Below, piece by piece: positions 43,124 through 58,460 of a DNA stretch of 64,000 nucleotides. The translations under genes and the position numbers were made by a program. The stretch covers positions 186,001-250,000 of the forward strand of contig NZ_JAEPJQ010000002.1 in NCBI RefSeq assembly GCF_016827605.1. Reading direction: 5' to 3'. This stretch comes from Hyunsoonleella ulvae (GTDB lineage: Bacteria > Bacteroidota > Bacteroidia > Flavobacteriales > Flavobacteriaceae). The notes below the pieces were generated by a model that had not been told where the DNA came from, searched no databases, and saw only the letters and a list, made by a program, of their open reading frames with translations. Positions within the stretch are counted from its first letter, which is position 1; each line of letters starts with the position of its first letter.

Positions 43124-43765
43124 TTATAATGTTCCTACAATTAATTTACCGTGATAGGCTTTGGCTTTAAACACACTATGCGCGTCCTCAAGATTTTGTT
43201 TTGTAATACCTCCGCAAGGCATGATTTCAAGATGACTTCCCTGAGCTACTTTCATCATTTGTAAGATTAATTCTTGTCCCTCTTGCCATGTTTGTCCTTT
43301 GCCCGAGGTTAATATCGTATCTATGCCTTTAATGTTCATCAATGCCTTAATTGTTTCAACGGGACTATCTACTGCGTCAATAGCTTTATGAATCGTTACT
43401 TTCATAGGTTGAGCTAGTTCAACTAGTAATTCAGTTCTTTTTAAATCCATCGTATTATTGTCGGTTGTAATCCCAAAAACAACGCCTTCAATACCTAATG
43501 ATTTACAAGTTTCTATTGCCTGTTTCATACTTTGAAATTCTTTTTCGGAATAATCAAAATTACCTTCTCTTCGTCTTATAATGACTCTAACTGGAATATT
43601 ACATTGCGTCGTAACCTCTTTTATCGTTGCGATATCAGGTGTTAGCCCATCTAAATCTAAACGTGCACAAAGTTCAATTCTATCCGCCCCTAGTTTTTCA
43701 GCTAGTAGTGCTTGTTGTAATCCCTCAACACAGGCTTCTTTTATGTATTTACTATTCAAATCCAT
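43124..43765 (-). CDS. cutC: CutC-family TIM-barrel protein
   Basis: A 213-residue cytoplasmic protein. CutC signatures are EACVEGLQQALLAEKLGADRIELCARLDLDGLTPD, IRRREGNFDYSEKEF, GVVFGITTDN, ILTSGKGQTW and IMPCGGIT, in that order. The family was named for copper homeostasis, but its enzymatic role is unclear and many genes occur in sugar-catabolic surroundings. It has no signal peptide. The gene starts 4 bases after the GH85 stop and is clearly co-transcribed, which favours a link to N-glycan catabolism over copper. Confidence 0.9.
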   Translation of the reverse strand: MDLNSKYIKEACVEGLQQALLAEKLGADRIELCARLDLDGLTPDIATIKEVTTQCNIPVRVIIRRREGNFDYSEKEFQSMKQAIETCKSLGIEGVVFGITTDNNTMDLKRTELLVELAQPMKVTIHKAIDAVDSPVETIKALMNIKGIDTILTSGKGQTWQEGQELILQMMKVAQGSHLEIMPCGGITKQNLEDAHSVFKAKAYHGKLIVGTL

Positions 43766-43769
43766 AACA

Positions 43770-45704
43770 TCATTTTAAACTCACTTTTTTCAGGGAGGGT
43801 CTACTGTTAGAGTTGTTTTTTGAAACGGAAACTACTTGAATTTCTATTGTTTTTTGATTTTTATTTATTTTGAAAGGTGCCACATAATAATCTGTACTTC
43901 GTGTTTTACCCAACCAGATTTTCTTACCGTTTTTAATTCGATATATATTGTGAAATTCAGCTTGTTTATCGCCTTCAATATGTACATACAATTCCACGCT
44001 ATCATCATGTTTAAAAGGTGCAATAGTCACTTTAGGCTTTTTAATGGCGGTATTGGATTTCTGTCTGATTGCCAATGCCCCAAGATATACCATATCTCCT
44101 TTGCTTCCTGAAAATTCGATTTCAATCTTAATAACTTTTAAACCTTTTAATTCTTCTAATAAATCAAAGGTATTTTCATTCCACACTTTATCTAATTTGA
44201 CATGAAATGCATGTTTTGAACCATGATTTGTATAAAGTACGTATTGTAATTTCCCAACGCCCTTGCATGCTATATTCAATACCTCCTTACCGGTTAGACT
44301 TAGTGCTGTTTTGTATAGCGGAATTTTAGATAGTTCAACATTCGTTTTAGCTTCTATTTTTACCGATGAACCTCCCGTATAGCTTTCATTAAAATCAAAA
44401 CCAATGTTAACCTTAGTAGTATCCACTTGCCATTGCCATGTGGGTAAAATATCTTGAATACTTAAATTATGCCATTCTGTATTGGATACTCTTTTTCCTT
44501 TTTCATTAAAAAAGCGCCCTAAGCCATAATTGAAATGGGTTGAAAATGGGAGTCTCTGAATAACCGAACGCGCAGGAATATATTTTGAAAAACCTTTCCA
44601 TTCTTTAGATTGCCACGCAGGAACTTCTTCCTTTAAAATGGTACCGTTCCAAAATTTTTGTTCTTCCTCATAAACCGATTCTGGTTGTTTGTCTTTGGCT
44701 ATATCAAAAGTAGAATTTGGCCAATATAAACCTATAGATGTTGTGTAAGGTTTTTCGTTTTTATATAAGCCTTTCCAGTTGGTTGGTGTTTTATAACTTT
44801 TGGATTGTACGTCAATACCAGAGTATAATTCCCACGGACTTCTACCCAAAGCTTTGGCACGTTTATGAGAATCTTCCAATTGTGTTTCACTCCAACCAAA
44901 ATCAATAAACATGATATCTGAACGCTTTTCATCTTCTTTTTGAAAATACATGCTGTTGTGGTGATTCAACTCGTCTTGCCAAATGACGCGTCCATCTTCA
45001 ATCATGGCGTCGTACCACATAATTTTTAGATGTCCGCTGGCTTTTTGTTGGTAATATTTTAAAAATTCTTGCATTAAGCGTGCCTCTTTTTCGCCCATAC
45101 CATGGGTTTCTTGATTGATAAACCAACCTTCAAATCCGTAAAGTTTGGCTACTTCAATTAATTTATCTGCTACTAGAAAATTACCGGTATCATCTTGCTG
45201 TAAAAACTGGTGCACCCATTCCTCTTTCCCTCCATACACATTGGGCGGAAAAAATACGGTTCCCAAAATTTCAACACCATTTAAGTGGGCAGATTCTATC
45301 CAAAAAGCAGTTGGTGTTACAATGATGCCTTCGCCAGCAGAACCTCCCCATTGTACCAAATAATCAATATACTGCCAATATGGAAAGGCATACTGCTCTA
45401 CTGTTTGAAACCCTTGGGAAGGGTGATTATTAGTAGTATATGGCGCAATTAAAGATATTACAGACGGCTCTGTACTTAATTCTGGATTGACTTGTGTGGT
45501 ACTATCAACAAATCGGTCTTGTATTGGTAGGTAACTTTTATTGAATTTAACATTGTTATCTTCATTGGGGCTCCATTTTAAAAGCTCATCAATAAACCAA
45601 TAAGAAGAGTAAGGCTGATGTTTTCCCATTCCACTCTGAGCACCAGAATAGTGAAAGACAGCAACTAAAAGTAGTGTCTGAAAAAGCATTTTTAATTGTC
45701 GCAT
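43770..45704 (-). CDS. GH85 endo-beta-N-acetylglucosaminidase (ENGase), secreted
   Basis: A 644-residue secreted enzyme (signal cleaved near YSGAQ, residue 23). GH85 features are the first barrel strand FPYWQYIDYLVQWGGSAGEG (about 107-126), WIESAHLNGVEILGTVFFPP, YGFEGWFINQET with the catalytic Asn197/Glu199 pair (the N-x-E arrangement of the family), IMWYDAMIEDGRVIWQDELN, DIMFIDFGW and LYSGIDVQ. C-terminal beta domains follow (about 420-644). It cuts between the two core GlcNAc residues of N-glycans, leaving one GlcNAc on the protein. It is the third gene from the end of the operon led by the second GH38 and provides a second way, besides PNGase F, to free glycans. Confidence 0.93.
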   Translation of the reverse strand: MRQLKMLFQTLLLVAVFHYSGAQSGMGKHQPYSSYWFIDELLKWSPNEDNNVKFNKSYLPIQDRFVDSTTQVNPELSTEPSVISLIAPYTTNNHPSQGFQTVEQYAFPYWQYIDYLVQWGGSAGEGIIVTPTAFWIESAHLNGVEILGTVFFPPNVYGGKEEWVHQFLQQDDTGNFLVADKLIEVAKLYGFEGWFINQETHGMGEKEARLMQEFLKYYQQKASGHLKIMWYDAMIEDGRVIWQDELNHHNSMYFQKEDEKRSDIMFIDFGWSETQLEDSHKRAKALGRSPWELYSGIDVQSKSYKTPTNWKGLYKNEKPYTTSIGLYWPNSTFDIAKDKQPESVYEEEQKFWNGTILKEEVPAWQSKEWKGFSKYIPARSVIQRLPFSTHFNYGLGRFFNEKGKRVSNTEWHNLSIQDILPTWQWQVDTTKVNIGFDFNESYTGGSSVKIEAKTNVELSKIPLYKTALSLTGKEVLNIACKGVGKLQYVLYTNHGSKHAFHVKLDKVWNENTFDLLEELKGLKVIKIEIEFSGSKGDMVYLGALAIRQKSNTAIKKPKVTIAPFKHDDSVELYVHIEGDKQAEFHNIYRIKNGKKIWLGKTRSTDYYVAPFKINKNQKTIEIQVVSVSKNNSNSRPSLKKVSLK

Positions 45705-45746: not shown

Positions 45747-46820
45747 CTACTGTTCATGAATTAACTTAAGCGAGGCTTTCATAAACCCCATAGCATAAGC
45801 CATACCCGCATACCATGGTCCATCGCAACTCATTTGTGGGGTATGGTCTGGAATCAAAACACCTTCGAAATTATTTTTCTTTAAAATTTCTAAAATCTTA
45901 AACATATCGATATCTCCTTCATCTACAAATACTTCGTGGTAATTTGGCACTTTGCCAACAACATTTCTAAAATGAATATAGGCTATCTTGCTTTGTTTGC
46001 TGTATTGGTCTGTAGCTTCGTATACATCGCCTTCAGTCATTTCAGATATGGTGCCCAAACAAAACTCTAGGTTGTTATTATCACTAGGTTTCATATCTAT
46101 TAAACGTTGATACATGTCAGGTTGATACACCAATCGTGGTGTGTTTCTAACATACGGCATTGGTGGGTCGTCTGGGTGGGCCGCCATCTTTACACCTGCC
46201 TCCTCGGCCACTGGTATCACATGGTCTAAAAAGTACTGTAAGCGCTCCCAAAGTATGGCATGCGACACTCTTTCTACAGTCCCTGCTGGTGCGTTATCAT
46301 CATAGACCATATTCCAAACCATACCGTTTGGAATAGGTGTTTCATCAACCGAACCTTCCATACCTACGGAAACCGCTCCACCGCGGGCAAATGGTTTTTC
46401 AACCCTACTGGATACGCCTGCCAAAGAAAAATTATAACCGAAGACAGGAATTCCTACTTTACCCACAATTCGAATTTGTTCTTTAACCAGCTCTATTTGT
46501 TGTTCCTTTTTAGGGCCATCTAAAAGAATATCGTGCCATATTGAGGGGTCAAAATTCTCAATAGCGTACCACTCTAGTCCATGACTATTAATTTCTGCTT
46601 TAATCTTTAAAAGCTCCTCCAAAGACCATAGTTCTCCGTTACCTGCTTTTCCCCAGCCTTTGTTTCCCCCTATGGGTTGGTTGGCGTTAGATTTACTATT
46701 ATCTGCATTCCCAAAATAATCTACCATGTGCACCACCACGTGTGTCGCTCCACATTGCTTTGCAAATTTATAATGCTGTTCGTTCAGCATGTGACGGTAT
46801 AGTCCGAATCCTAATTTCAT
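45747..46820 (-). CDS. Mannonate dehydratase family protein (UxuA-like)
   Basis: A 357-residue cytoplasmic TIM-barrel protein, somewhat shorter than the usual near-400-residue UxuA. Family features are MKLGFGLYRHML at the start, a YAIENFDPSIWHD region, MAAHPDDPPMPYVRNTPRLV (metal-binding His), LEFCLGTISEM, IHFRNVVGKVPNYHEVFVDEGDIDM and the end HTPQM. Mannonate dehydratase turns D-mannonate into 2-keto-3-deoxygluconate. Mannonate would arise if the sugar dehydrogenase and lactonase of this operon oxidise mannose. Some specificity residues, such as FGYNFSLAGVSSR in place of the usual CYNFMP, differ, so a related sugar acid is possible. Confidence 0.85.
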   Translation of the reverse strand: MKLGFGLYRHMLNEQHYKFAKQCGATHVVVHMVDYFGNADNSKSNANQPIGGNKGWGKAGNGELWSLEELLKIKAEINSHGLEWYAIENFDPSIWHDILLDGPKKEQQIELVKEQIRIVGKVGIPVFGYNFSLAGVSSRVEKPFARGGAVSVGMEGSVDETPIPNGMVWNMVYDDNAPAGTVERVSHAILWERLQYFLDHVIPVAEEAGVKMAAHPDDPPMPYVRNTPRLVYQPDMYQRLIDMKPSDNNNLEFCLGTISEMTEGDVYEATDQYSKQSKIAYIHFRNVVGKVPNYHEVFVDEGDIDMFKILEILKKNNFEGVLIPDHTPQMSCDGPWYAGMAYAMGFMKASLKLIHEQ

Positions 46821-46827
46821 CTTATTA

Positions 46828-48015
46828 TTATTTTTTGTTTAAAAATGTGTGGATATCCTCATCGGAATATCCACAATATTGCTTCAATATCTCTTCGGCA
46901 TGTTGGTTGAGTAAAGGTGCCGGTTTTTCAATTTTTTGTGGTGTTTCACTAAACTTCACAGGAAAGCCTGTAGTTTTTACAGTGCCCACCTTTGGGTGTT
47001 CGTACTCCAAAATCATGTCATTATGTTTTATCTGTGGGTCTTCTACCATTTCTTTAAAACTATTGACTTGCGAACACCAAATGTCTTCTGCCAACAATAA
47101 TTCTAACCATTCACTAGTGGTTTTGGTTTTAAAAACAGCATTAAAATCGTTTCGAATATTATCACGATTATCAATGATGTTATTCGATTTGTACTTCTCT
47201 GAATCATACTTGTCTAAACCAATGACTTGCGCTAGTCTTTGTACAGAATTCATCCCGATAGCAATGTAACCATCAGAAGTATCGTATAAACCATAGGGCG
47301 CACCCAACCAAGGATTTGGAATACCGCTTGCACTGCGCTCTGGATTTTCCCCTTTTAACAAAAAAGCTGTTATCTCTTGAATATGAAATCCTACTGCAGA
47401 ACTCAATAAATTAGCTTCAATTTTTTGTCCTTTACCAGTGACACTCCTTGAATAAATACCAGCTAAAACCGATTGCACAATAAACAAACTGGTTAATAAA
47501 TCGGCTTGACCTACTGCCGTAACCACGGGCAACCCATCTTTCTGTCCGTTTAAATAGGGAGCCCCACTTATGGACTGTGCCAGTAAATCCTGCCCTGGTC
47601 TTTTTAAATATGGTCCTGAAGCTCCGTATCCCGAGCTAGAGCAATATACTAATCCCGGATTCAGCGTTTTCATATCTTCATAACCCAAACCTAAGCGCTC
47701 CATTACACCAGGACGAAAATTTTCCAAAAGAATATCCGCCTTAGCAATTATATCTATTGCTATTTTTTTGCCTTCGTCAGATTTTAAATCGAGTGCTATA
47801 CTTTTTTTATTTCTATTGAAACTTATAAATGAGATACTCTCCCCTTCGGGATATAAATTCCCATAGGAATAATGACGCATCCAATCGCCTTTTACCGGTT
47901 CTATTTTTATGATGTCTGCGCCCATATCGCCCAACATTTGTGTAGCCCATGGCCCTTGTGCCAACTGCGAAAAATCGGCTACTACCAATCCTTTTAAAGA
48001 TCCGTGTTGTTCCAT
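46828..48015 (-). CDS. Class III CoA transferase (CaiB/BaiF family)
   Basis: A 395-residue cytoplasmic protein. It has the family N-terminus LKGLVVADFSQLAQGPWATQMLGDMGADIIKIEPVKGDWMRH in order (about residues 8-49), the LLENFRPGVMERLGLGYEDM block and CSSSGYGASGPY. The GQKDGLPVVTAVGQADLLT region holds the probable catalytic Asp (about residue 172). Such enzymes move CoA between carboxylic acids. A CoA acceptor in an N-glycan locus is unexpected. The gene follows the enoyl-CoA hydratase by 2 bases, so the two probably work together, and precedes the mannonate dehydratase. Confidence 0.92.
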   Translation of the reverse strand: MEQHGSLKGLVVADFSQLAQGPWATQMLGDMGADIIKIEPVKGDWMRHYSYGNLYPEGESISFISFNRNKKSIALDLKSDEGKKIAIDIIAKADILLENFRPGVMERLGLGYEDMKTLNPGLVYCSSSGYGASGPYLKRPGQDLLAQSISGAPYLNGQKDGLPVVTAVGQADLLTSLFIVQSVLAGIYSRSVTGKGQKIEANLLSSAVGFHIQEITAFLLKGENPERSASGIPNPWLGAPYGLYDTSDGYIAIGMNSVQRLAQVIGLDKYDSEKYKSNNIIDNRDNIRNDFNAVFKTKTTSEWLELLLAEDIWCSQVNSFKEMVEDPQIKHNDMILEYEHPKVGTVKTTGFPVKFSETPQKIEKPAPLLNQHAEEILKQYCGYSDEDIHTFLNKK

Positions 48016-48017
48016 GT

Positions 48018-48788
48018 TTATTGTTCCGACTTTTTAATAAACTTTTGAATTGACATTTGCGCTTCTTTATCTAAGTATAATTGTTTAACTGCAATGGCCT
48101 CTTCATTGATACGCTCTTCAAAAGGTATTGTTGTTAAACTCATATTTGCCAGACGCTTTAATTGTGCTATAGATTTATGAGGTCTTCTTGAAAGTTTCCC
48201 TGCAAAACCCATCATTTCGGTTAAAAAATTATCGCTGGAAAACACCTGATTAACCAACCCCCAATCTTTTAAGGTATTGGCATCGTATTGCCCTCCTAGA
48301 AACAACATTTCCTTTACTCGGTTTATGCCTATTTTTTGGATTAATCGTTGCGTGCCACCACCACCAGGAACTAAACTTAAAAATACTTCTGGTAGCCCCA
48401 TTTTTGCACTTTCAGATGCTACAATCATATCGCAAGCCAAGGCTATCTCACAACCACCACCAAGAGCAAAACCATTAACACCAGCTATCCAAGGTTTATG
48501 TGCATTTTCAATAGCATCATATAGTTGTTTCCCTTTTTCTTGAAAGGCGTCAAACTCTTCAGGGGTTTGGCTTCCGTATTCCTTAATATCGGCTCCTGCC
48601 ATAAATGCTCTACCCGTTCCAGTAATTACTGCAACATGATAGTCAGATTGGGCGTTAATCCGATGGATGCCTTCAATTATTTCATCCATCATCTCCCGAT
48701 TCATGGCATTTAATTGTGCTGGCCGATTAAATTTTAATACAGCAATGGCATCAGTAGTTTCAATGGTTATGGTTTTAAATGCTTTCAT
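48018..48788 (-). CDS. Enoyl-CoA hydratase/isomerase family protein
   Basis: A 256-residue crotonase-fold enzyme. The ATG at 48788 was preferred over an upstream one at 48902 because it lies 2 bases after the preceding stop and begins the domain (MKAFKTITIETTD). Seen are NRPAQLNAMNREMM, GTGRAFMAGADIKEYG (oxyanion-hole strand), AGVNGFALGGGCEIALACDMIVASESA, and FLSLVPGGGGTQRLIQKIG with the LP/LxPGGGGT active-site loop. Crotonases add water to, or isomerise, enoyl-CoA thioesters. Its substrate here is unknown. It forms a tight trio with the signal-less solute-binding protein upstream and the CoA transferase downstream. Confidence 0.92.
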   Translation of the reverse strand: MKAFKTITIETTDAIAVLKFNRPAQLNAMNREMMDEIIEGIHRINAQSDYHVAVITGTGRAFMAGADIKEYGSQTPEEFDAFQEKGKQLYDAIENAHKPWIAGVNGFALGGGCEIALACDMIVASESAKMGLPEVFLSLVPGGGGTQRLIQKIGINRVKEMLFLGGQYDANTLKDWGLVNQVFSSDNFLTEMMGFAGKLSRRPHKSIAQLKRLANMSLTTIPFEERINEEAIAVKQLYLDKEAQMSIQKFIKKSEQ

Positions 48789-48790
48789 AA

Positions 48791-49930
48791 CTAAACGGAT
48801 TTGTAATAGTCGTTTAACGTATTCATTATTGCCTCTGAACTCGTATCTTTTAATATACCATCGTGAATAATATCGGCACCCTGTTCTTGAAATGCATTCC
48901 AACCCGGATGTTGCGGACGTATATAAGCGTTTTCAATAGTCCATTTTGTATCATTAAAAAAGTCGTTACATAACACATTGTTAGTTTTGCTCTCCCAAGC
49001 AGTTTTACTTGCGGGTTGCCCATCGTTTTTGGTAAACACACCTTTTTGAACCTCAGCACTAGCTGCATAGTTGACATACTTTGAAGCTATTTCAGGATGT
49101 TTGGTTAAGGCAGATACCGCTAGCCCTACACCTCCCATAATCGTTGATATATCTTTTTGTAATCCCGTAGGGCTATTTGTAAAATGCACTAGGTTTTTAG
49201 TATACCCTTTCCGGGAATAATTGGTGTACCCAAATAGATAAGGCGAATAAATTATACTTTCTTCATTACCCATATTATCCAGTATCTGAATAGGATTCCA
49301 GTTTAAGGATTGGGGATGACTATGTTCTACATGAAATTTTATATCATCTAAAGCAGAAATACCAACTTTGGAATTAATTTTATTATTATCAATAAATCCA
49401 GAACCAAAATTTTGAGCACAAAGCGTTAAAAAAGTACACCAAATATCTGTTGGACAAAGTGCCCAAGCCACTGAAAACCCAGATGGTAACTTTTTATAAA
49501 ATGCTTTTAATTCCTCCTGATTTTTAGGTAAGCTCAGTTCCAAGCTATCTATAATATCTTTTCTGTAAGATGCCACTAAGGCTGCCGCATCTATTGGAGT
49601 GGCGTAAAAGTGGTCCTCGCAATTATAGATATCGAAGCATTTTCCTAAAGCCTGTTGTTTCAAGGCATCTAATGCTTCGGGGGTTATATAGTTTTCCAAC
49701 TGAAGTAGCAAGCCTTTTTTGTGGGCTTGCCCCATGTAGGGATGGTCTATGGTTATGATATCAAAATTTTCAATTAAATCTTCGATAGGTGTATCCCCAA
49801 ATTCCTTTAGGGAACGCACTTTCCAAGTGATATTGACATTTGGATTATTTTCTTGAAATGCCTTTGATGTAGCTATGAGTGGTTCATACCCTCTTGGATG
49901 GTCCCATGCTATGCCTTTTAATTCAATCAT
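48791..49930 (-). CDS. Solute-binding-protein-like protein (family 1 fold) without signal peptide
   Basis: A 379-residue protein resembling extracellular solute-binding proteins of ABC sugar importers: AIAWDHPRGYE-type start GIAWDHPRGYEPLI, FDIITIDHPYMGQAHKKGLLLQL, YATPIDAAALVASYRKDII, MGGVGLAVSALTKHPEIASKYVNYAAS and a KNDGQPAS segment. The ATG at 49930 begins directly at the fold's first strand, and no signal peptide or lipobox is encoded. No ABC permease or ATPase is in the window. It may therefore be a cytoplasmic ligand-binding protein or an enzyme-like relative. It sits 2 bases from the enoyl-CoA hydratase and 16 from the lactonase gene. Confidence 0.8.
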   Translation of the reverse strand: MIELKGIAWDHPRGYEPLIATSKAFQENNPNVNITWKVRSLKEFGDTPIEDLIENFDIITIDHPYMGQAHKKGLLLQLENYITPEALDALKQQALGKCFDIYNCEDHFYATPIDAAALVASYRKDIIDSLELSLPKNQEELKAFYKKLPSGFSVAWALCPTDIWCTFLTLCAQNFGSGFIDNNKINSKVGISALDDIKFHVEHSHPQSLNWNPIQILDNMGNEESIIYSPYLFGYTNYSRKGYTKNLVHFTNSPTGLQKDISTIMGGVGLAVSALTKHPEIASKYVNYAASAEVQKGVFTKNDGQPASKTAWESKTNNVLCNDFFNDTKWTIENAYIRPQHPGWNAFQEQGADIIHDGILKDTSSEAIMNTLNDYYKSV

Positions 49931-49946
49931 TGTTAACTCAATTAAA

Positions 49947-51035
49947 CTATAACCAGCAAATATTTACTGGTGTATTTACTTTAAATGTTGATTTTTTTTG
50001 AAGTGTGCCATCATTTGTATTTATCTCAAACACTACTAAGCTATTGCTATCCTGATTAGCGACTACAAGCCATTTGCCTTCAGGATGGATATTAAAGTCT
50101 CTTGGTGTTTTACCATAGGTACTTTGATGCCCCACAAGTGATAATTGCTTGGATTGGGCATCAATTTTAAAAATGGCAATGGTTTCAGAACCGCGATTGG
50201 ATGCGTATAAGAACTTCCCATTGGGATGCATTCGTATGGCCGCACCACCAATTGCCCCATCATGATTTTCAGGAATAAAACTTATCTTTTGAATGCTCTT
50301 ACTATCACTTTTCTTTACATCTACAACAAAAATCTCTCCTGTTAATTCTCCCAGTACATAGGCAAACTCTTGATTGTTATCCATAACCATGTGTCGTGCA
50401 CCACTTCCTGGCTCAATTGATATATCTAAAACTGGATTGCTCTGCCATTTTTGTTCTTTATCTTGCCATTGGTAGGCCTTTGCGGTATCTAAAGTTAAAT
50501 CTACAGCAAACATCTGATTGTCGGCAAAAGGGTATATCATGTGGGCATGTGCCGCTTCTTGCCGTTCTTTATTAGGACCAACACCTTCGTGCCGGATGTC
50601 TTGTGAATATGGATTAAGACTACCATCTGCGTTTATGGGATAGGATAAAATATTTCCTGACATGTAACTTGCCAGTACCAATTTATTTTCAATAATAGCT
50701 AGATGACATGCGTAATCGCCATTGATAGGCTGTGAATTAATAAGGCGTAAACCTCCATTATTTTCAATCTTATAGGCATGTACCTTTGGTTTGAGATTTT
50801 CTTGGGTTTCCTCAACCGCATAAAGGTATTTTTTGTCGTCAGAAATTACCAAGTAACTCGGATTTCGCTGTTTCGTATAGCTTTTTTCGGTAATTTCTCC
50901 TGTTTCTAAATTAAATTCAAAACACCCAATACCTTTTCCTTCTGGATTTTCTGCCGGAGTGCCTTGCCCCGTATAGCTTCCTGTATAAAAAACACCCATA
51001 CTTTGTAATGCAATTGTTATTAAAATTAGTTTCAT
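49947..51035 (-). CDS. Lactonase, 6-phosphogluconolactonase (YbhE/Pgl) family beta-propeller
   Basis: A 362-residue seven-bladed propeller. The N-terminus has a short hydrophobic stretch (LILITIALQSMGVFYTGSYTG), so export is possible but weakly supported. Family features are KGIGCFEFNLETGEI, NPSYLVISDDKKYLYAVEE, CHLAIIENKLVLASYMSGN, AAHAHMIYPFADNQMFAVDL, GSGARHMVMDNN and NPPHDFN-like TPRDFNIHPEGKWLVVANQDSN. It hydrolyses sugar lactones. Its start abuts the dehydrogenase stop, so in this operon the natural substrate could be mannono- or gluconolactone made by that dehydrogenase. Confidence 0.88.
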   Translation of the reverse strand: MKLILITIALQSMGVFYTGSYTGQGTPAENPEGKGIGCFEFNLETGEITEKSYTKQRNPSYLVISDDKKYLYAVEETQENLKPKVHAYKIENNGGLRLINSQPINGDYACHLAIIENKLVLASYMSGNILSYPINADGSLNPYSQDIRHEGVGPNKERQEAAHAHMIYPFADNQMFAVDLTLDTAKAYQWQDKEQKWQSNPVLDISIEPGSGARHMVMDNNQEFAYVLGELTGEIFVVDVKKSDSKSIQKISFIPENHDGAIGGAAIRMHPNGKFLYASNRGSETIAIFKIDAQSKQLSLVGHQSTYGKTPRDFNIHPEGKWLVVANQDSNSLVVFEINTNDGTLQKKSTFKVNTPVNICWL

Positions 51036-51839
51036 CTATTTATTCGTTTTTCTCGGAGGACGAGGGTCGTATTGAATCGTGTGGTTCATGTAGGCACCAT
51101 CGATGTACAAATCTGCCCCGTTGATATACTCTGCCATATCACTTGCTAAAAATGCCACGGTATTGGCTACTTCGGTAACATTACCTATTCGTCCAGATGG
51201 TATCCAGTCATGAAACTTCTCCCGTCCAAATTTGTTGATTTCTTCTCGGTTCATATTCGTTTCAATAGCTCCTGGCGCTACAGATACCACTCTAATGTTA
51301 TCTTCTGCCAACTCTAAAGACAGACATTTTGTAAACATCTTTAATCCTGCTTTTGCAGAACAATAATGAATCAATCCCTTTCTGGGAACCGTATCATGAA
51401 TTGAGGAAATATTTATAATAACACCGCCTCCATTATTTTCCATACGTTTTCCTGCTTCTTTAGCACATAAAAAAGGGCCTTTTAAATTGATGCCCATTAC
51501 CCTATCCCATTCGTCTTCTTCTAAATCTAAAACATGTTGAACGCTTTCGCTACCAGCATTATTTACAAGAATATCAATAGTGCCAATTTCGGCATCCATT
51601 TGACTGAACATATCCTTAACTTCGGAAGCTTTTGCCACATTGGCTTTTCCTATCCTTACCGTAACATTATACTTTGATGTTATCTCATCTGCTACCTCCT
51701 GTGCTTTATCTTTATTACTGTAATAATTGATAAATACATCAGCACCACACGCCGCCAATGCTTTACAAATTCCTGCACCGATACCTTGACTTCCTCCTGT
51801 TACTAGGGCTTTTTTGCCTTTTAAGTTAATTTGTGTCAT
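51036..51839 (-). CDS. Short-chain dehydrogenase, glucose 1-dehydrogenase-like
   Basis: A 267-residue SDR enzyme with the cofactor motif TGGSQGIGAGI (about residues 14-24), NNAGSE, active-site SSIHDTVPRKGLIHYCSAKAG (Ser, Tyr and Lys of the SDR triad) and PGAIETNMNREE. The INYYSN segment after strand 2, the HDTVP..HY..K order and the PGAI..N.E block match Bacillus glucose 1-dehydrogenases, so a sugar 1-dehydrogenase activity is likely. A mannose or glucose substrate would give the corresponding lactone for the adjoining lactonase. No gap separates the two genes. Confidence 0.88.
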   Translation of the reverse strand: MTQINLKGKKALVTGGSQGIGAGICKALAACGADVFINYYSNKDKAQEVADEITSKYNVTVRIGKANVAKASEVKDMFSQMDAEIGTIDILVNNAGSESVQHVLDLEEDEWDRVMGINLKGPFLCAKEAGKRMENNGGGVIINISSIHDTVPRKGLIHYCSAKAGLKMFTKCLSLELAEDNIRVVSVAPGAIETNMNREEINKFGREKFHDWIPSGRIGNVTEVANTVAFLASDMAEYINGADLYIDGAYMNHTIQYDPRPPRKTNK

Positions 51840-51845
51840 TGGCTT

Positions 51846-52277
51846 TTAATCTTTTTGGTTATTAAAACAAGCTGTTACCTTCTGTTTTAATTCAGCTATT
51901 TGCGTATCATTTAATTGAAAAAACTCAAAGTCTGATATATGTGTATCTGATTTTTCTACTATAATAATCTCGCTTCCTTCTTTCATAGCTATATTATGCC
52001 ACACATTGGCAGGAATATTATATGTGATGTTGGGTTTTAGTAATTCTGCTTCAAAGGTTACACTATCGCCTTCAATTTCAGCCCCAATTAATACGGCCTC
52101 TCCTTTTAATAGAATAAATACCTCATCGGTTAAAAAATGGACATCCAATTTTTTTATATTATCTATATGTTGCTCTGGCATATAGTTTAATTGTGCCACT
52201 TGCCAGCCCTCTCGTATTAAAAACGGATGGTATCCATTAGCTTCTACTTTGTACTGTTCTATAACGGTTGTGCTCAT
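51846..52277 (-). CDS. Small cupin-domain protein
   Basis: A 143-residue single-domain cupin. It shows a QLNYMPEQHIDNIKKLDVHFLTDEVFILLKGEAVL strand set, in order, with the first cupin motif (His and Glu), and IPANVWHNIAM with the second-motif His. It could be a sugar epimerase, isomerase or metal-binding sensor; sequence alone does not decide. It lies 6 bases from the dehydrogenase and 6 bases from the sugar porter, so it probably acts on the imported sugar or its lactone. Confidence 0.8.
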   Translation of the reverse strand: MSTTVIEQYKVEANGYHPFLIREGWQVAQLNYMPEQHIDNIKKLDVHFLTDEVFILLKGEAVLIGAEIEGDSVTFEAELLKPNITYNIPANVWHNIAMKEGSEIIIVEKSDTHISDFEFFQLNDTQIAELKQKVTACFNNQKD

Positions 52278-52283
52278 ATTATT

Positions 52284-53735
52284 TTAGTCTTTTGTTCTAT
52301 CTTGTTTCCAAGACATTTCTATCTCTTCTAATGTTTTGCCTTTTGTTTCTGGTACAAACTTCCATATAAACCAAATGGCTGGGAGTGTTAATGCGCCGTA
52401 TAAAAAGAAAGTCCCCGACGGTTTTATAGTTTCTATAAACACAGGGTTGGTAAGTGTGATAAAAAAACCTGTAACCATTAATGATAAACTACCAATACTT
52501 ACGGCTAAACCTCTAATTTTAGTGGGGAATATTTCGCTAATAATGACCCAAACAATAGGACCATAGGAAAAGGCAAAACATGCTACATACAATAATAATG
52601 GAATAATGACCAAACTAGAACCTAGGGCAAATAAGGTAGCTACACCAAACAATGAAATGGCGGCACCTATGACGCCAATTAGAAGTAATTTTCTTCTTCC
52701 GTAACGCTCAATATTCATAATAGCTACAAACGTGAAAATGGAATTTACCAATCCTACTAAAACCGCTCCCAAAAAGGAACTTTCTACACTTTTTATAGAC
52801 TCATTTAAAATATTTGGCGCAAAATACATGATGGCTGCAATTCCGCTTAAATGTGAAAACATTGGCAATAGAATACCTATTAAAAATGGTCGTCTTAAAT
52901 AGGGCTTTAGCAAATCTTTAAAACCTTGAGATTCTGATTTTACTACAGATTGTATCTCGTCCATTTGAGATTTAGCCATAAATTCTCCCATGGTTTTAAC
53001 CATAATGGCGTAGGCTTTATTTTCCTTACCATTTACCGCTAACCATCTTGGACTCTCTGGCACTAGGAATAACAGCACCAAGAACAATAATGCTATGGGA
53101 ATTTCTGTACCAAACATACCACGCCAAATTTCTTCTACAAATAACCAGTTCCAAAACCCTCCGTTTTCTTGCGTTACAACCCCAGCCACGTCTCCTGCCG
53201 CATTTAGTACCATCCAGTCCACTAAAAAGGCTAACAGAATACCTAGTGTTATTGAAAGCTGATATAGCGACACCATTTTTCCTCGCTTTTCGGGTAATGT
53301 TAATTCTGAAATGTATATGGGTGCTACAACTGACGTGATGCCTACGCCTATACCGCCTATGATTCTAACCACAACTAAAAATACAAATGAGTTTTTAGAA
53401 GATGCCGACATCCAATAGGCATTGTTCAAATCGCCTAAAAATTGAGGCGGTAACATAGAACCAAATGCAGAAAGCAACAAACATGCTGCTGCCACTATTA
53501 AGGCTTTTTTTCTACCAAACTTGTCCGTAATACTTCCCGAAATCACACATCCTAAAATGGTGCCCAAGAGTGCCGAAGACACGACCCACCCCAACATACT
53601 TGATGACAGGTTATATTGACTTTCTAGAAATGTGTTACATCCTGAAATAATGGCGGTATCGTACCCAAAAAGAAAGCCCCCAATGGTGGACACAAAGCTG
53701 ATGCCATAAACGTAAAATGATGTATTGGTTTTCAT
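52284..53735 (-). CDS. Sugar porter family (XylE-like) major facilitator transporter
   Basis: A 483-residue inner-membrane protein with 12 expected hydrophobic segments. Sugar-porter signatures are GGFLFGYDTAIISG (helix 1), SITDKFGRKKALIVAA, RIIGGIGVGITSVVAPIYISE, VPESPRWLAV (about 225-234), NIERYGRRKLLLIG and the terminal FVPETKGKTLEEIEM. Such carriers import hexoses or pentoses, usually with protons. In the operon it would bring unphosphorylated mannose to the dehydrogenase. It follows the RraA-like gene by 36 bases. Confidence 0.94.
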   Translation of the reverse strand: MKTNTSFYVYGISFVSTIGGFLFGYDTAIISGCNTFLESQYNLSSSMLGWVVSSALLGTILGCVISGSITDKFGRKKALIVAAACLLLSAFGSMLPPQFLGDLNNAYWMSASSKNSFVFLVVVRIIGGIGVGITSVVAPIYISELTLPEKRGKMVSLYQLSITLGILLAFLVDWMVLNAAGDVAGVVTQENGGFWNWLFVEEIWRGMFGTEIPIALLFLVLLFLVPESPRWLAVNGKENKAYAIMVKTMGEFMAKSQMDEIQSVVKSESQGFKDLLKPYLRRPFLIGILLPMFSHLSGIAAIMYFAPNILNESIKSVESSFLGAVLVGLVNSIFTFVAIMNIERYGRRKLLLIGVIGAAISLFGVATLFALGSSLVIIPLLLYVACFAFSYGPIVWVIISEIFPTKIRGLAVSIGSLSLMVTGFFITLTNPVFIETIKPSGTFFLYGALTLPAIWFIWKFVPETKGKTLEEIEMSWKQDRTKD

Positions 53736-53771
53736 AATTTATATTTAGTTAGTGTTGGTTTGGTTTTTCTT

Positions 53772-54476
53772 CTACATAATTCCAAATTTGTTGTAGGCAT
53801 CTACAGTACTCATCCCTTCTTCCAAAGCTTTTTTTACAAGTTGCTCTCCCCTTGCCTTTTCTATAGCTCCTGCAAACGCTTTTTCTTCTACTTCTTTTGG
53901 CACTACAACTACACCATCCCTATCTCCATAAATAATGTCGCCTGGATTTATGCGTGTACCTTCTATTTCTATAGGCACTCTATAATCTATTACTTTACCT
54001 CTTGGGCCTTGGTCCTGTGCATAGCCTCCGTAAGAAAATGTTGGGAAATTAAGATTTAAAACTTCGTTGGTATCTCTTGAATAGCCATGAAGTACAGCGC
54101 CTGCGGCCTTAAGTTTCATAGCGCGGGTACTCATTAATCCTCCCCATAGGGCATATCTAGGAGAAGACCCTGAGCAGATGTAAACTTCATCTTCTTTTAA
54201 ATCGTCTAAGGCTTCAAACATAATCCCGAATGGTTTTTTCATCATGGGGTTTTTGGTGTCTTTTACAGACTCTTCAAAAACATCGGCCTCTAAAACTGGC
54301 ATTGCTCTACCTATAACCACAAAATCTGTATTTAATGGTTTTATATTAGGCGGTAAAAATTGATGTTGATATCCCAACGTATCTAAAATATCGCCTACTA
54401 AGGCTACAAATAATTCTGACTTGGCTATGGCGAATAGCTCTTTATCATCATTCCAAATTTTATTAGTATTGCTCAT
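53772..54476 (-). CDS. RraA-family protein (aldolase/decarboxylase-like)
   Basis: A 234-residue RraA/MenG-like protein. The family core is GGLMSTRAMKLKAAGAVLHGYSRDTNEVLNLNFPTFS, in order, with the GxxxxxxA...G..G.V..G..RD pattern; the metal/pyruvate Asp lies in GYSRD (about residue 142). The segment GDIIYGDRDGVVVVP follows at about 195-209. Related enzymes split 4-hydroxy-2-oxoacids into pyruvate and an aldehyde or oxoacid. In this operon it could act on the 2-keto-3-deoxy acid made by the mannonate dehydratase, giving pyruvate (inference). No KdgK or KdgA-type genes were seen in the window. Confidence 0.85.
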   Translation of the reverse strand: MSNTNKIWNDDKELFAIAKSELFVALVGDILDTLGYQHQFLPPNIKPLNTDFVVIGRAMPVLEADVFEESVKDTKNPMMKKPFGIMFEALDDLKEDEVYICSGSSPRYALWGGLMSTRAMKLKAAGAVLHGYSRDTNEVLNLNFPTFSYGGYAQDQGPRGKVIDYRVPIEIEGTRINPGDIIYGDRDGVVVVPKEVEEKAFAGAIEKARGEQLVKKALEEGMSTVDAYNKFGIM

Positions 54477-54505: not shown

Positions 54506-57358
54506 TTACTTTAAAATTATTTTATAAGTTTCAATAGCATTGTGCCCAATGTCTATTTTAATATCTTTTCCACTTAAATTCAATGTTTCTGCGTCTTCTT
54601 CAATTAAATTAGTTTTTATAACTTTTGAAGCCTCTTTAGGTAGTGATATTGTGGGTTGACTGTCTTTACCATCTAGTTCTACCAACCTTAACACGAGAGC
54701 ATCTTCATCTTCTGCTTTCTTAATGGTAGTAACACGTACCATCGGATTGGAAATATCAAAAAAGCTCTTACTTTCAGGTAAACTACCCTCTTTATTCTTT
54801 GTTTTTTGAGAGCATACTTGAAGTGGATGATGTGCGTCATTACTAAACTTATACGCTATGGCATCACTTGCTTGATGTGATGTTATTGAAAATTCAAAAT
54901 GATGGTCTCCTGTTTGGTGGTACCAATTCCCTTCGCCATGACAACTTTTATGTGAAGCCATTAAAATACCTTGAAGTACGGTGTATTCAACAGATTCTCT
55001 GGTTGGGTCTATCCAATCTGCTACGGCCACACCAGAAGCTAAGGTAACTTGAAAACCATCCTTTTCTGAAGATATAAAATTCATAACCTCTCTTGGATGA
55101 ATCTCCACAGGCTTTTGGTCGTAAGTACCAACCCAAGACCAGCCTCTCGGTGCTTGTTTCATTTCAGATTTTCTAACTTCGGCTATGGCCAGAGGTACTT
55201 CGTATTTAATAGTAGTCTCTTCCATATCTAAAGGCAAAGCAAATCTAAACTCCCTGTTATGTGTGCCATCCCAATCTAAAATATCTATTGAAAAATCTAT
55301 TTTCTTAATATGATGATGCACTTTTATGTGTTGAACTATGTTGGCATGTTTAAACTTAACACGGTTTTCATAAAGTGTGTATACAGCACCATCATTCACA
55401 ATTTTCCAGTTACCTGTGTGTAAACTTGTTTTATCAAATCCGTCCATTTTTGGGGCTGTCATTTGTGTAAACTCTCCCGCACCATTCCCATCATATTTCA
55501 TTGAAAGTATATCGCCTCCAGCAAACCTTGTAGTCTTTACAACCTCTTTATTTGACTCTCTATCTAATAAATACGTCATACCACCTTTTCCTAATCGCAT
55601 TTCATAAAATTGATTCCATAGGGCATTAGGTTTTACAGTCTTGTTGACTTTAAATGTTTTTCTACCTTTCTTTAAGTAAAAGGTAGCATAGCCCAAAGAG
55701 GGTAATTTAGATGCTACAAACTCCAAAGTTCTTATACCCTTTTGCGTACTGATTTGAGACGGTACCACATTACCATTTTGGTCTATAACATAATAGTTGG
55801 AATTATCATTTAAAGCCACTTTAGCAGTTGCCTTTCTTTCCCAAGACAGGTCATTGTAAACCACCATCGCATTGTTGCGCTTGGTTTTCACATTACTTGA
55901 AATGGAGTGGATTGACTTTTCAATTAAACGGTCTGCTTCTGATGCCGAAAATTCCAATTTTGCACGGAAAATACTATCTGTAACATGTCCGTTTTTGCCA
56001 CCCCAACCGTGGTCTGGATAAATTGACGCTTCAAAAGCTTCCGAAAGTGCTTCTGATGGATAGTCTTTAAACGACCCTTTTAAAGTAGCATCAATTGAAG
56101 CAAAAATTTCTGCTGATGGTAATAAGCGCCCTGCTTTTCTTGAAGCTGTAATAGCCTTTGCGTGACCAGGTCCATGAATGTATGACCAAATGTTAGGTCT
56201 TTCGCCGTCTACAGTTTCAAATTTAGCTTCAGGTGTTTTTATTTCATTCATCAACGCTGTTACTGTGGAATGTCTAAGATTGGGCATTTTAACCCCAGTT
56301 TTCTTTAGAATTTCATTCCATTCTGAAACAATGTTTCCATAGTTGTTAGGTCCTGAAGCATCATTACTTATCACTATAGCAAAATGTGGTGGTAGGTTGT
56401 GTTCTTTATAATAATCGCTCCACATTTTTACTCTAGATTGCAATTTATGCATAGCTTCTATAGCATCTTGTTCAAAGAGCTTGTAGAACATAACCGCCCA
56501 GCCATAATTCCCAGGACTGTATGTTGGGATTTTCGAACCATCTGGAGAATACCAGTTATAAAAACCTTCTTTCATTCTAGATACAAATAAGTTCTCTATA
56601 CCAGATTTAGCCAGTACTTGTGCTGATTGCAACGTTCTTCCGGGCACATCTGTATTGTAAACAGTAACGGCATCTGCGCCTTCAAGGTTCTTTATAATCC
56701 AACGTCTTCCAAAATAGAGCTCACGAATTAACTGCTCGTCGGTTTGCATGCCTTCATAAGGCTGATTATAGGTTCCTCCCCATTTAAATCTTCCTTCCTG
56801 TGAACGTAATATAATCTCCTCTTTGCGCTCTGGAAATTCTTCTAAAAACTCCATTAAATCGAGTGTTTGCTCCATTCCAAAGTGGAAATTTTTATCGGTT
56901 TTCATAATATCTAAAGCAGGTGCTACGATATGATGAATACGCTCCTCCCTACACTTATCTGGTGTATCTACCCAGGCAATATCTTGATGTGATGATGAAA
57001 TAACATGCAACGTACCCTCACTAAAATAGCCCCAATCTGATGTTACTAATGGTGTAAATAATTGTTTAGAAGTATTTTTTCTTGATTTCCCTACAAAGGT
57101 TACGCTTTCGGGGGTGCCAAAAACGGGCAACCATACCCATGCTTTACCATCTTGTTGCTTTACTTCGGCGGTTCTTCCACTAGCAAAATCTAACCGTTTG
57201 TATATGTTAACATCATCAATATTTAAACTCGCCTTTGCCAGCAAATTCCCTGAAACTTCTTTATACTCATAAGGCTCTACATAAGTTATATTAATAGTGC
57301 TTTGCCCATAGGCTAACCCTACCATTAACATCAGCATTAAAAATGTATAATTTTTCAT
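54506..57358 (-). CDS. GH38 alpha-mannosidase, secreted
   Basis: A 950-residue family 38 enzyme with signal peptide (cleavage near AYGQ, residue 19). The catalytic domain shows VISSSHQDIAWVDTP (zinc ligands H124 and D126), FKWGGTYNQPYEGMQTDEQLIRE and VYNTDVPGRT with the probable nucleophile D237. Further blocks are IWSYIHGPGHAKA, EASIYPDHGWGGKNG, HVTDSIFRAKLEFSASEADRLI and the C-terminal beta domains. It heads the 13-gene minus-strand operon and lies 35 bases downstream of a palindrome also found before the LacI gene. It differs from the GH38 at 4119-7529, sharing mostly the catalytic motifs. Confidence 0.93.
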   Translation of the reverse strand: MKNYTFLMLMLMVGLAYGQSTINITYVEPYEYKEVSGNLLAKASLNIDDVNIYKRLDFASGRTAEVKQQDGKAWVWLPVFGTPESVTFVGKSRKNTSKQLFTPLVTSDWGYFSEGTLHVISSSHQDIAWVDTPDKCREERIHHIVAPALDIMKTDKNFHFGMEQTLDLMEFLEEFPERKEEIILRSQEGRFKWGGTYNQPYEGMQTDEQLIRELYFGRRWIIKNLEGADAVTVYNTDVPGRTLQSAQVLAKSGIENLFVSRMKEGFYNWYSPDGSKIPTYSPGNYGWAVMFYKLFEQDAIEAMHKLQSRVKMWSDYYKEHNLPPHFAIVISNDASGPNNYGNIVSEWNEILKKTGVKMPNLRHSTVTALMNEIKTPEAKFETVDGERPNIWSYIHGPGHAKAITASRKAGRLLPSAEIFASIDATLKGSFKDYPSEALSEAFEASIYPDHGWGGKNGHVTDSIFRAKLEFSASEADRLIEKSIHSISSNVKTKRNNAMVVYNDLSWERKATAKVALNDNSNYYVIDQNGNVVPSQISTQKGIRTLEFVASKLPSLGYATFYLKKGRKTFKVNKTVKPNALWNQFYEMRLGKGGMTYLLDRESNKEVVKTTRFAGGDILSMKYDGNGAGEFTQMTAPKMDGFDKTSLHTGNWKIVNDGAVYTLYENRVKFKHANIVQHIKVHHHIKKIDFSIDILDWDGTHNREFRFALPLDMEETTIKYEVPLAIAEVRKSEMKQAPRGWSWVGTYDQKPVEIHPREVMNFISSEKDGFQVTLASGVAVADWIDPTRESVEYTVLQGILMASHKSCHGEGNWYHQTGDHHFEFSITSHQASDAIAYKFSNDAHHPLQVCSQKTKNKEGSLPESKSFFDISNPMVRVTTIKKAEDEDALVLRLVELDGKDSQPTISLPKEASKVIKTNLIEEDAETLNLSGKDIKIDIGHNAIETYKIILK

Positions 57359-57434: not shown

Positions 57435-58460
57435 CTATTTTTTTGTTCCGCAAGACCCTCTTACTTCTAGTTTTGTTTTTAAAACTTCTACTTGTGTTTT
57501 GGTCTTAACTGTACCCGCTATTTTATTTAAAAGTATATCTGTTACTGCTCTTCCAATGGCTTCAACAGGTTGCACTACTGCTGTAATTGGAGGTTCTACT
57601 ATATCAAAAGCACTTAGTTCATCAAAACTTACTATGGCAACGTCATCTGGTACATTTACGTCTAATTTTTTAAGTACCCGCAACCCTTGAGAGGCCAAAT
57701 AATGTGTTGAAAATACTATGGCATCAACGGGTTCTGCTCCCCGGAGTAAGTCTTTAATAGCGCTTTCTATTTCATTAAAATATTCTTCTCTACTAATCTC
57801 TTGTATATGGTCCTTATTCTGAACTAAATTATGACTTTTAAGCGCGTCGCAATAACCTTTTAAACGTTGGGCTATTGGTTCTAAGCCTGGTTTTAATGTT
57901 ACAAAACCTATACGTTTTCTTCCTAAGCTAAGTAGATGTTCTGTTACTTTTTTTGAACCATAGAAATTATCTACAATAACATGGTCTGTATCCATATCTG
58001 GATAATGCCTATCAAACAACACAAAGGGAAACTTTTCTTTCTTTAAAAAATCTATTTCCTTTTGATTTTTTTGGGTAGACGCAATCACTAATCCATCTAC
58101 TTGCCTATTAAGCATAGACCTTATAAGTTCTCCTTCAGTTTCAGGGTTTTCGTAAGAACTACTAAATAGTACTGTATAACCTTTTTCTTTTGCTTTTCTT
58201 TCAATAAAACCAGCTACTTTAGAGTAAAAGGTATCTGATATGTTTGGGATAATCAGCCCAATGGTTTCACTTTTACCCATACTTAAACCACGTGCTAACT
58301 GGTTTGGAATATAGTTATGCGCTTTGGCAAAGTCTATAATCTTCTGTTGGGTCTCTTGGCTTATCTTATTTTCATCGCCTTTTCCATTTAACACCAGTGA
58401 TACTGCCGTTTTAGAAACATTTAGTTCTTTCGCTACATCCTTCAAATATAATTTCTTCAT
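57435..58460 (-). CDS. LacI-family transcriptional regulator (module 2)
   Basis: A 341-residue regulator with the LacI helix-turn-helix (LYLKDVAKELNVSKTAVSLV), hinge PNQLARGL at about 52-59 and an effector domain. The two Asp that often contact sugar in this family are kept (D150 in FVLFDRH, D280 in IVSFDE), unlike in the module 1 paralogue. The recognition-helix residues differ from the paralogue at positions 19 and 22 (Ala/Leu versus Thr/Tyr), which fits the different palindrome found here. It lies between two identical operator candidates and probably represses itself and the GH38-to-M81 operon until an inducing sugar binds. Confidence 0.93.
   Translation of the reverse strand: MKKLYLKDVAKELNVSKTAVSLVLNGKGDENKISQETQQKIIDFAKAHNYIPNQLARGLSMGKSETIGLIIPNISDTFYSKVAGFIERKAKEKGYTVLFSSSYENPETEGELIRSMLNRQVDGLVIASTQKNQKEIDFLKKEKFPFVLFDRHYPDMDTDHVIVDNFYGSKKVTEHLLSLGRKRIGFVTLKPGLEPIAQRLKGYCDALKSHNLVQNKDHIQEISREEYFNEIESAIKDLLRGAEPVDAIVFSTHYLASQGLRVLKKLDVNVPDDVAIVSFDELSAFDIVEPPITAVVQPVEAIGRAVTDILLNKIAGTVKTKTQVEVLKTKLEVRGSCGTKK

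Follow-up and report, generated by a model that had tools for sequence, protein, structure and literature searches.

How does Hyunsoonleella ulvae metabolize the mannose that its glycosidases would release? The question is raised by a run of 13 genes, headed by a gene for a GH38 alpha-mannosidase and also encoding a sugar porter, a short-chain dehydrogenase/reductase (SDR), a lactonase, a UxuA-type dehydratase and an RraA-like protein. The run occupies positions 57358–41543 on the minus strand of the window, by which we mean the whole 64,000-nucleotide stretch analyzed here (positions 186,001–250,000 of contig NZ_JAEPJQ010000002.1, assembly GCF_016827605.1), part of a 4.06 Mb genome. With some reservation, we favor reading the run as a conserved Bacteroidota operon in which mannose freed from alpha-mannosides, here those of N-glycans, would be oxidized without phosphorylation; with greater assurance, we propose as likely the stretch of this route that leads from mannose through mannonate to 2-keto-3-deoxygluconate (KDG). 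Gene content, gene order, protein families, conserved residues and co-occurrence are what we observe, and from these we infer every substrate and reaction.

In the proposed route, the porter would import mannose, the SDR would oxidize its carbon 1 with NAD(P) to give mannonolactone, the lactonase would open the lactone to mannonate, and the UxuA-type enzyme would dehydrate D-mannonate to KDG. The KDG could then be split directly by the RraA-type aldolase to pyruvate and D-glyceraldehyde or, alternatively, be phosphorylated and cleaved by a KDG kinase (KdgK) and a 2-keto-3-deoxy-6-phosphogluconate (KDPG) aldolase (Eda) encoded on another contig; both fates are probably possible. The genes of the run, unbroken from GH38 to MlrC with intergenic gaps of 0–42 bases, are listed in the order in which they are read, followed by the regulator gene directly upstream.

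54506–57358, minus strand: GH38 alpha-mannosidase, first in the run (PF01074 and PF17677 above cut-offs, PF07748 below)
53772–54476, minus strand: RraA-like protein, putative class II pyruvate aldolase that may cleave KDG (PF03737)
52284–53735, minus strand: MFS sugar porter, XylE-like (PF00083 and TIGR00879 above cut-offs)
51846–52277, minus strand: cupin, with no Pfam match (cupin_WbuC weak and below cut-off; solved relative 3d0j)
51036–51839, minus strand: classical SDR, glucose-1-dehydrogenase-like, putative mannose 1-dehydrogenase
49947–51035, minus strand: seven-bladed propeller lactonase (PF10282)
48791–49930, minus strand: protein of the sugar-binding-protein fold (SBP_bac_1) without signal peptide (PF01547)
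48018–48788, minus strand: enoyl-CoA hydratase/isomerase (PF00378), 256 aa from the ATG at 48788; the listed open reading frame starts at 48902
46828–48015, minus strand: CoA-transferase of family III (PF02515)
45747–46820, minus strand: short UxuA-type protein, putative D-mannonate dehydratase (PF03786 above cut-off)
43770–45704, minus strand: GH85 endo-beta-N-acetylglucosaminidase (PF03644)
43124–43765, minus strand: CutC family protein (PF03932)
41543–43108, minus strand: MlrC/M81 metallopeptidase family protein (PF07364, PF07171)
57435–58460, minus strand: LacI-type regulator directly upstream, named from its sequence by eye

Gene run and related loci

A preliminary description of the interval 45747–54476 had placed five genes (porter, SDR, lactonase, mannonate dehydratase and RraA-like protein) in one operon within an N-glycan locus, with the lactonase abutting the SDR. 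All five are indeed present in one tight minus-strand run, with a gap of 0 between SDR and lactonase; the genes within the interval are co-directional, and their reading frames are open over full length. The N-glycan setting is borne out by four GH92 genes among those scanned, the GH85 gene, a GH130 gene and genes for a PNGase F-like protein and a PIG-L-domain protein, all in the window. Much of the set recurs in similar order in other genomes, so it is more than a chance assembly.

For a comparison of gene neighborhoods, we used the UxuA-type protein as bait and took the best 80 of 209 stretches encoding a relative (from 79 distinct genomes), with flanks of up to 10 kb; neighboring genes were compared both by tblastn and by clustering of open reading frames from a simple caller. 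Loci in which an SDR reached 50% identity or more were designated type A (45 of 80 by clustering and 46 by tblastn; the 46th, L035, was classed as “other” in the clustering because an antisense reading frame displaced its SDR), and loci with UxaC and/or an Nramp-like transporter but no close SDR were designated type B (8 of 80). The remaining 27 loci are mixed or shortened and stand outside the contrast; L032 and L037 have other type A genes, with no SDR seen on the available stretch. The two methods agree in finding the porter in 42, the lactonase in 37 and RraA in 44 of the 45 type A loci (43 in the type A run proper, since the RraA gene of L020 sits in a neighboring run with an MR_MLE, or enolase superfamily, gene). 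GH38 occurs in 40 of these loci by clustering and 39 by tblastn, any of GH38, GH92, GH76 or GH85 in 43, and the cupin in 42 by tblastn (41 by clustering). Both methods find the sugar-binding protein in 27, the CoA-transferase in 26, and KdgK and Eda in 7 each; the enoyl-CoA hydratase is found in 27 by tblastn and 26 by clustering (that of L033 clustered with lactonases), and the three CoA-linked genes together in 26 (tblastn). Among the eight type B loci, UxaC occurs in six and RraA in four, with no porter, cupin, lactonase, mannosidase, CoA gene or KdgK/Eda in any. One representative each of GH76, GH92, Nramp, KDPG aldolase, PfkB, UxaC and GH38 was confirmed by Pfam.

The gene content of type A versus type B loci supports the sequence mannose, mannonolactone, mannonate, KDG, and their neighbor genes suggest that one dehydratase subfamily is fed by either a mannose-type or a uronate set. 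In the dehydratase tree, all eight type B proteins and that of the window fall in a supported set of 25 rows (16 type A, 8 type B and one other), and in the RraA tree type B members are mixed among type A with weak support. Because the two types mix on both trees, the dehydratase and RraA appear to be shared while upstream genes are exchanged. The chain put forward in the preliminary description, from mannose to pyruvate and glyceraldehyde, is backed by the locus comparison as far as KDG, whereas its aldolase step is dispensable and four genes of the interval (those for the cupin, the sugar-binding protein, the enoyl-CoA hydratase and the CoA-transferase) had been overlooked.

Several other genes of the run and its relatives deserve mention. 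The cupin, found in none of the type B loci, is tied to mannose-type operons and could be a mutarotase or a lactone-handling protein. The LacI-type gene is separated from GH38 by 76 bases and has relatives in 15 of the 80 loci (tblastn); the CutC gene, between GH85 and MlrC, has relatives in 5 of 80. MlrC, which closes the run here, also occurs near distant RraA genes (33–36% identity) in L156 and L157. Right after UxuA, a second set of porter, SDR and CoA-transferase genes is found in L045, L046, L050, L051 and L061; GH38 intervenes in L046 and L051, and GH92 adjoins the set in L045, L046, L050 and L061.

Enzymes of the proposed route

The dehydratase matches PF03786 with 186.8 bits (gathering cut-off 23.7) and, aligned with L167 and L089, retains H215, C254, H283, D325 and H326 as in canonical UxuA, residues that we take to be the metal site. 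Judged by its sequence, it is a short and divergent member of the UxuA family rather than a ManD, which is of the enolase type. Uronates seem to have a route of their own in this genome, since a longer UxuA is encoded in a separate cluster, together with TRAP-like genes, a relative of UxaC and a KduI-like protein of 280 aa (KduI and TRAP being presumptive names, assigned by sequence). A further locus just before the window (L172, C16:167000–186500) has two GH38 genes and genes for an MGH1-like protein, a sugar porter, an SDR and a UxuA-like protein, without RraA; this UxuA-like protein is 346 aa long, with the Asp of its PDH motif replaced by Gly.

The SDR retains S146, Y159 and K163, presumably the catalytic Ser-Tyr-Lys, invariant in 25 sequences. 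In its C-terminal part it has three motifs in common with solved glucose 1-dehydrogenases such as 3ay6, 1gco and 1gee (NNAG-x-E, SS-[IV]-H-[DE] and PGA-[IM]-x-T-x-[MI]-N), and the motif residues differ in the five FabG chains compared; of these residues, E98, H148, D149 and N197 do not vary among 25 type A SDRs. When the C-terminal two thirds are searched, places 2–8 go to glucose 1-dehydrogenases or to a close relative that bears only the name Dehydrogenase (8w0o), and the best FabG comes ninth. The protein nonetheless differs from glucose 1-dehydrogenases in falling below the cut-off of their profile PRK08936 (207 of 420 bits), while it exceeds that of the broad PRK07231 (231.1 of 215). For the lactonase, the N-termini of relatives indicate that the true start is probably an internal ATG at residue 13, which would make the protein cytosolic. 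The porter has its best NCBIfam score with XylE, below the cut-off.

The RraA-like protein is the sole PF03737 match in the genome. Its residues G112, R134, D135, K207 and E211 are invariant in 32 RraA sequences, and when the protein is aligned with the HMG/CHA aldolase 3noj by hmmsearch, G112, R134, D135 and E211 correspond to Gly-101, Arg-123, Asp-124 and Glu-199, with K207 at the position of Arg-195. It scores below the NCBIfam cut-offs of named aldolases (59 of 179 and 53.2 of 304.5 bits). The closest solved relative, 5ir2, is deposited as “Cellulase”, a name that misfits the family. No KDG aldolase of the dihydrodipicolinate synthase-like type, the type of Thermoplasma, was found in the run by Pfam scans; the RraA-like protein stands there instead.

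The genomic company of RraA was also examined in 14 loci of at least 50% identity that were chosen other than by UxuA adjacency: seven from genomes known to hold UxuA somewhere, four found among 395 Bacteroidota genomes drawn (five matches including this genome), and three on plasmids, out of 16 listed plasmid matches at 50% or above. L020, L036 and L070 (at least 50%, already UxuA-baited) and L156 and L157 (below 40%) were excluded. An SDR lies in the same run as RraA in 10 of the 14, several of which end at contig ends, the plasmid gene tables being incomplete. In other operons, MR_MLE proteins accompany RraA relatives of 58–78% identity, in two cases together with an SDR and an SMP-30-type lactonase: L150 has the order RraA, GH2, MR_MLE, SDR, SMP-30 lactonase, and L165 the order RraA, MR_MLE, SMP-30, SDR. 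By their families, both are sets of a dehydrogenase, a lactonase, a putative dehydratase and RraA. The RraA–SDR runs of L149, L020, L153 and L166 additionally encode RidA-like proteins, with MR_MLE in the first three and a creatininase confirmed by Pfam in L149 (look-alikes in L020 and L166); these runs apparently represent another acid-degrading pathway.

We rate the chance that RraA is a KDG aldolase as slightly below even. The preliminary description had called it the weakest link of the chain; it now appears less weak, given the retained catalytic residues and the other putative acid-sugar dehydratases near its relatives, though the presence of KdgK and Eda means that it is not needed.

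CoA-linked genes

Three genes between those for the lactonase and the dehydratase, encoding the sugar-binding protein, the enoyl-CoA hydratase and the CoA-transferase, form an accessory CoA-linked unit that the chain of the preliminary description cannot explain. The ATG of the hydratase lies 2 bases after the binding-protein gene, and the closest solved relative of the CoA-transferase is the succinate-hydroxymethylglutarate CoA-transferase 9br6. The AlphaFold model of the binding protein (predicted local distance difference test score 91.8) has its first strand at residues 2–9; by eye, the protein begins at this strand, without an export signal. Its best Foldseek matches are sugar-binding proteins such as SmoF, with template-modeling scores, normalized to query length, of 0.84–0.85 to 7ofy and 7yzs. 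Its neighbors are the lactonase, the hydratase and the CoA-transferase, with no permease or ATPase, and on the evidence of the model we regard it as cytosolic.

Of 296 Bacteroidota genomes drawn, 26 encode a match of any kind to the binding protein and 16, including this one, a nearly full-length match. At the 15 other loci (L121–L135), a family III CoA-transferase adjoins it in 14, and 14 have a hydratase nearby, either a crotonase or a MaoC protein (MaoC was confirmed by Pfam for one representative). A hydratase of either of two unrelated folds beside the CoA-transferase and binding protein points to hydration or dehydration of a CoA ester. The unit keeps company with sugar genes. Sugar neighbors were named in three of the loci. 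L122 encodes a FucP symporter, above one cut-off, together with a protein resembling 2,4-didehydro-3-deoxy-L-rhamnonate hydrolase. In L131, the neighbors resemble the RhaT symporter and L-fuconolactonase (below cut-offs). L124, the locus that has no CoA-transferase, combines a bifunctional rhamnulose-1-phosphate aldolase with a protein similar to rhamnose isomerase. FucP-like members occur in 8 and RhaT-like members in 5 of the 19 binding-protein stretches compared. On two alphaproteobacterial plasmids the binding protein stands beside a CoA-transferase or hydratase partner (one has the enoyl-CoA hydratase together with a TRAP transporter), and on a Rufibacter plasmid it lies in a SusC/SusD locus.

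One role that we can offer for the unit, speculative and on present evidence rather unlikely, is a CoA-thioester branch of sugar-acid catabolism, in which the CoA-transferase would charge the aldonate or its 2-keto-3-deoxy product, the crotonase (in sister loci an unrelated MaoC hydratase) would take water from the thioester or add it, and the cytosolic binding protein would hold the polar substrate or pass it on. In this operon such a unit would work on mannose, and in other genomes it would act in loci linked to rhamnose or fucose.

Competing readings and known systems

Several observations weigh against mannose oxidation as the task of the run. Naming the SDR substrate from sequence was tried and abandoned: full-length and profile searches favor FabG (the best full-length match, with glucose dehydrogenases close behind), the C-terminal part favors glucose dehydrogenases with an unassigned SDR, 4ni5, in first place, and the specificity cannot be read from such a pattern. 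The dehydratase lies below the NCBIfam cut-offs for both subfamily (156.5 of 191 bits) and equivalog (126.2 of 199.55 bits), and the second UxuA in the genome, on another contig, is 391 aa long with a full-length Pfam match. The preliminary description had also pointed to the usual kinase and isomerase, and the window does contain a ROK-family gene (10268–11203) and a phosphomannose isomerase type I domain (35930–36904). UxuA or MR_MLE shares the run with RraA in only 6 of the 14 partly truncated RraA loci (L149, L150, L153, L163, L165 and L089), and no gene for glyceraldehyde use was seen in the run. KdgK and Eda stand near RraA in 7 of the 45 type A loci, and with KDG kinase and KDPG aldolase in the genome RraA is dispensable. 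As for the locus comparison, the 80 loci were chosen through the UxuA bait; the contrast between types A and B is not independent, its raw Fisher p of 5e-8 ignoring kinship; and when SDR type was tested against the presence of mannosidase genes with correction for the tree, the best tree gave three A/B switches, with one independent pair on supported branches, too few for any significance to be possible.

The strongest competitor leaves oxidation to KDG intact and differs in what follows: KdgK and KDPG aldolase would always handle KDG, and RraA would have another job, for example on a different 4-hydroxy-2-keto acid or a side product. We put this somewhat short of an even chance. KdgK and Eda are indeed neighbors in this genome (on C18, a contig other than that of the window), all but four of the 79 distinct genomes (75) have an Eda above cut-off, and in L015 and L021, within operons that include an RraA gene, UxuA is directly followed by a KdgK–Eda pair. 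Yet 44 of the 45 type A loci carry RraA (that of L020 in the neighboring run), as do 4 of 8 type B loci, and RraA also stands with other putative acid-sugar dehydratases. Moreover, of the four genomes without Eda, all metagenome bins, two (the draft bins G319 and G342, with no Eda above cut-off and no clear KdgK) encode close RraA proteins at 74% and 61% identity, with the caveat that the two others have weak or partial RraA only. Mutual exclusion between RraA and KdgK/Eda was considered and was not seen: each of the seven type A loci that have both KdgK and Eda carries RraA as well, and the four genomes without Eda, two with a close RraA and two without, favor neither side.

The remaining alternatives would replace the proposed oxidation of mannose to KDG itself. 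The operon might oxidize another sugar of N-glycans or in alpha linkage (glucose, N-acetylmannosamine, a pentose, or a methylated or deoxy hexose), with the UxuA-like protein acting on that aldonate; the unpredictable specificities of SDR and porter, the XylE score of the latter and the shortfall of the dehydratase against curated mannonate dehydratase cut-offs leave room for this, but we consider it unlikely, since all but two of the 45 type A loci have GH38, GH92, GH76 or GH85 genes and since the same dehydratase subfamily stands with UxaC in six loci, where mannonate is expected. Less probable still is that the binding protein, hydratase and CoA-transferase are the main carbon route, through CoA charging, thioester dehydration and cleavage, with UxuA as a by-pass: the whole trio occurs in 26 of 45 type A and none of the eight type B loci, and in other Bacteroidota the binding protein adjoins a CoA-transferase at 14 of 15 loci and has either kind of hydratase nearby at 14 of 15, but the binding protein is missing from 18 of 45 type A loci, our literature search returned no CoA-linked sugar-acid name, and the trio could serve acyl decoration of a glycan. 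The CoA genes might also have a plain use resembling beta-oxidation. Finally, the SDR could be a fructuronate reductase feeding UxuA in a uronate route, the lactonase being incidental. Type B loci do place SDR-type reductases between UxaC and UxuA; however, Pfam scans found no UxaC in the run, and among type A loci just L004 has one, ∼9 kb downstream, the SDR of the run and that of type B are ∼33% identical, and the separate UxuA cluster would already cover uronates. Gene content thus disfavors this reading, which we judge highly improbable.

If the oxidative mannose reading is right, a range of Bacteroidota, many of them marine by name, would burn mannose from N-glycans and alpha-mannans oxidatively and spare the first phosphorylation. 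An oxidative route would then stand beside the textbook kinase and isomerase, with mannose entering metabolism in Entner–Doudoroff fashion, and the RraA subfamily would be suggested as a sugar-acid aldolase. Should the CoA trio act on sugar acids, it would represent a kind of sugar catabolism not met in the literature searched.

That search, whose coverage left out most subscription papers and all bioRxiv preprints, returned no report joining mannonate, RraA and Bacteroidetes, none of RraA as an aldolase for 2-keto-3-deoxygluconate, and none of CaiB/MaoC/Gfo with polysaccharide utilization or of aldonyl-CoA names; in the same literature, no function is described for a cytosolic sugar-binding protein beside a family III CoA-transferase and a hydratase. 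Nor is the operon described in the available excerpts of PMC13274419, PMC11036162, PMC6901390, PMC10963439, PMC9122927, PMC12673573, PMC5065237, PMC10444878, PMC12076931, PMC9213526 and PMC5306329.

Individual parts of the system do have counterparts. The hexuronate pathway, given in the excerpt as UxaC, fructuronate reductase, UxuA, KdgK and Eda (PMC12076931), has the mannonate dehydratase step and KDG in common with the proposed route, and our type B loci look like its kind; the run differs from it in having no uronate isomerase and in its entry by C1 oxidation of a neutral sugar. For the HMG/CHA aldolase of P. putida, an RraA family member, the available text describes residues Gly-101, Arg-123, Asp-124, Arg-195 and Glu-199 (PMC5065237); all but Arg-195, which is Lys in our protein, have retained equivalents, and the substrates named there are dicarboxylic. 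UxuA and RraA genes, adjacent or close as in our loci, are reported from Paenibacillus sp. B2 and Agrobacterium sp. B1, where the accessible part of the paper proposes hydration and cleavage of a lignin fragment rather than breakdown of a sugar acid (PMC12673573).

Whole routes of this kind are known or predicted from archaea. For the haloarchaeal Natronoglomus mannanivorans, mannose oxidation is predicted, with mannonate dehydratase genes beside mannanase genes; the likeness extends to KDG kinase and KDPG aldolase and to RraA in the legend of the compared clusters, whereas that system, in the text available, is archaeal, acts on beta-mannan and has a semi-phosphorylative end, with RraA as a putative oxaloacetate decarboxylase outside the scheme of the text (PMC10963439). 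From Thermoplasma acidophilum, AldT, ManD and KDG aldolase were used to rebuild an oxidative mannose route in vitro, which, as excerpted, passes with the dehydrogenase first from mannose through mannonolactone, mannonate and KDG to pyruvate and glyceraldehyde, the chemistry that we propose here; there the dehydratase is ManD and the lactone opens spontaneously, whereas here a UxuA family member, a lactonase gene and an RraA-type protein stand in a glycan-degradation operon (PMC6901390). The chemistry is thus known from Thermoplasma and predicted for haloarchaea, and the CoA-linked set is the most novel part of the H. ulvae run.

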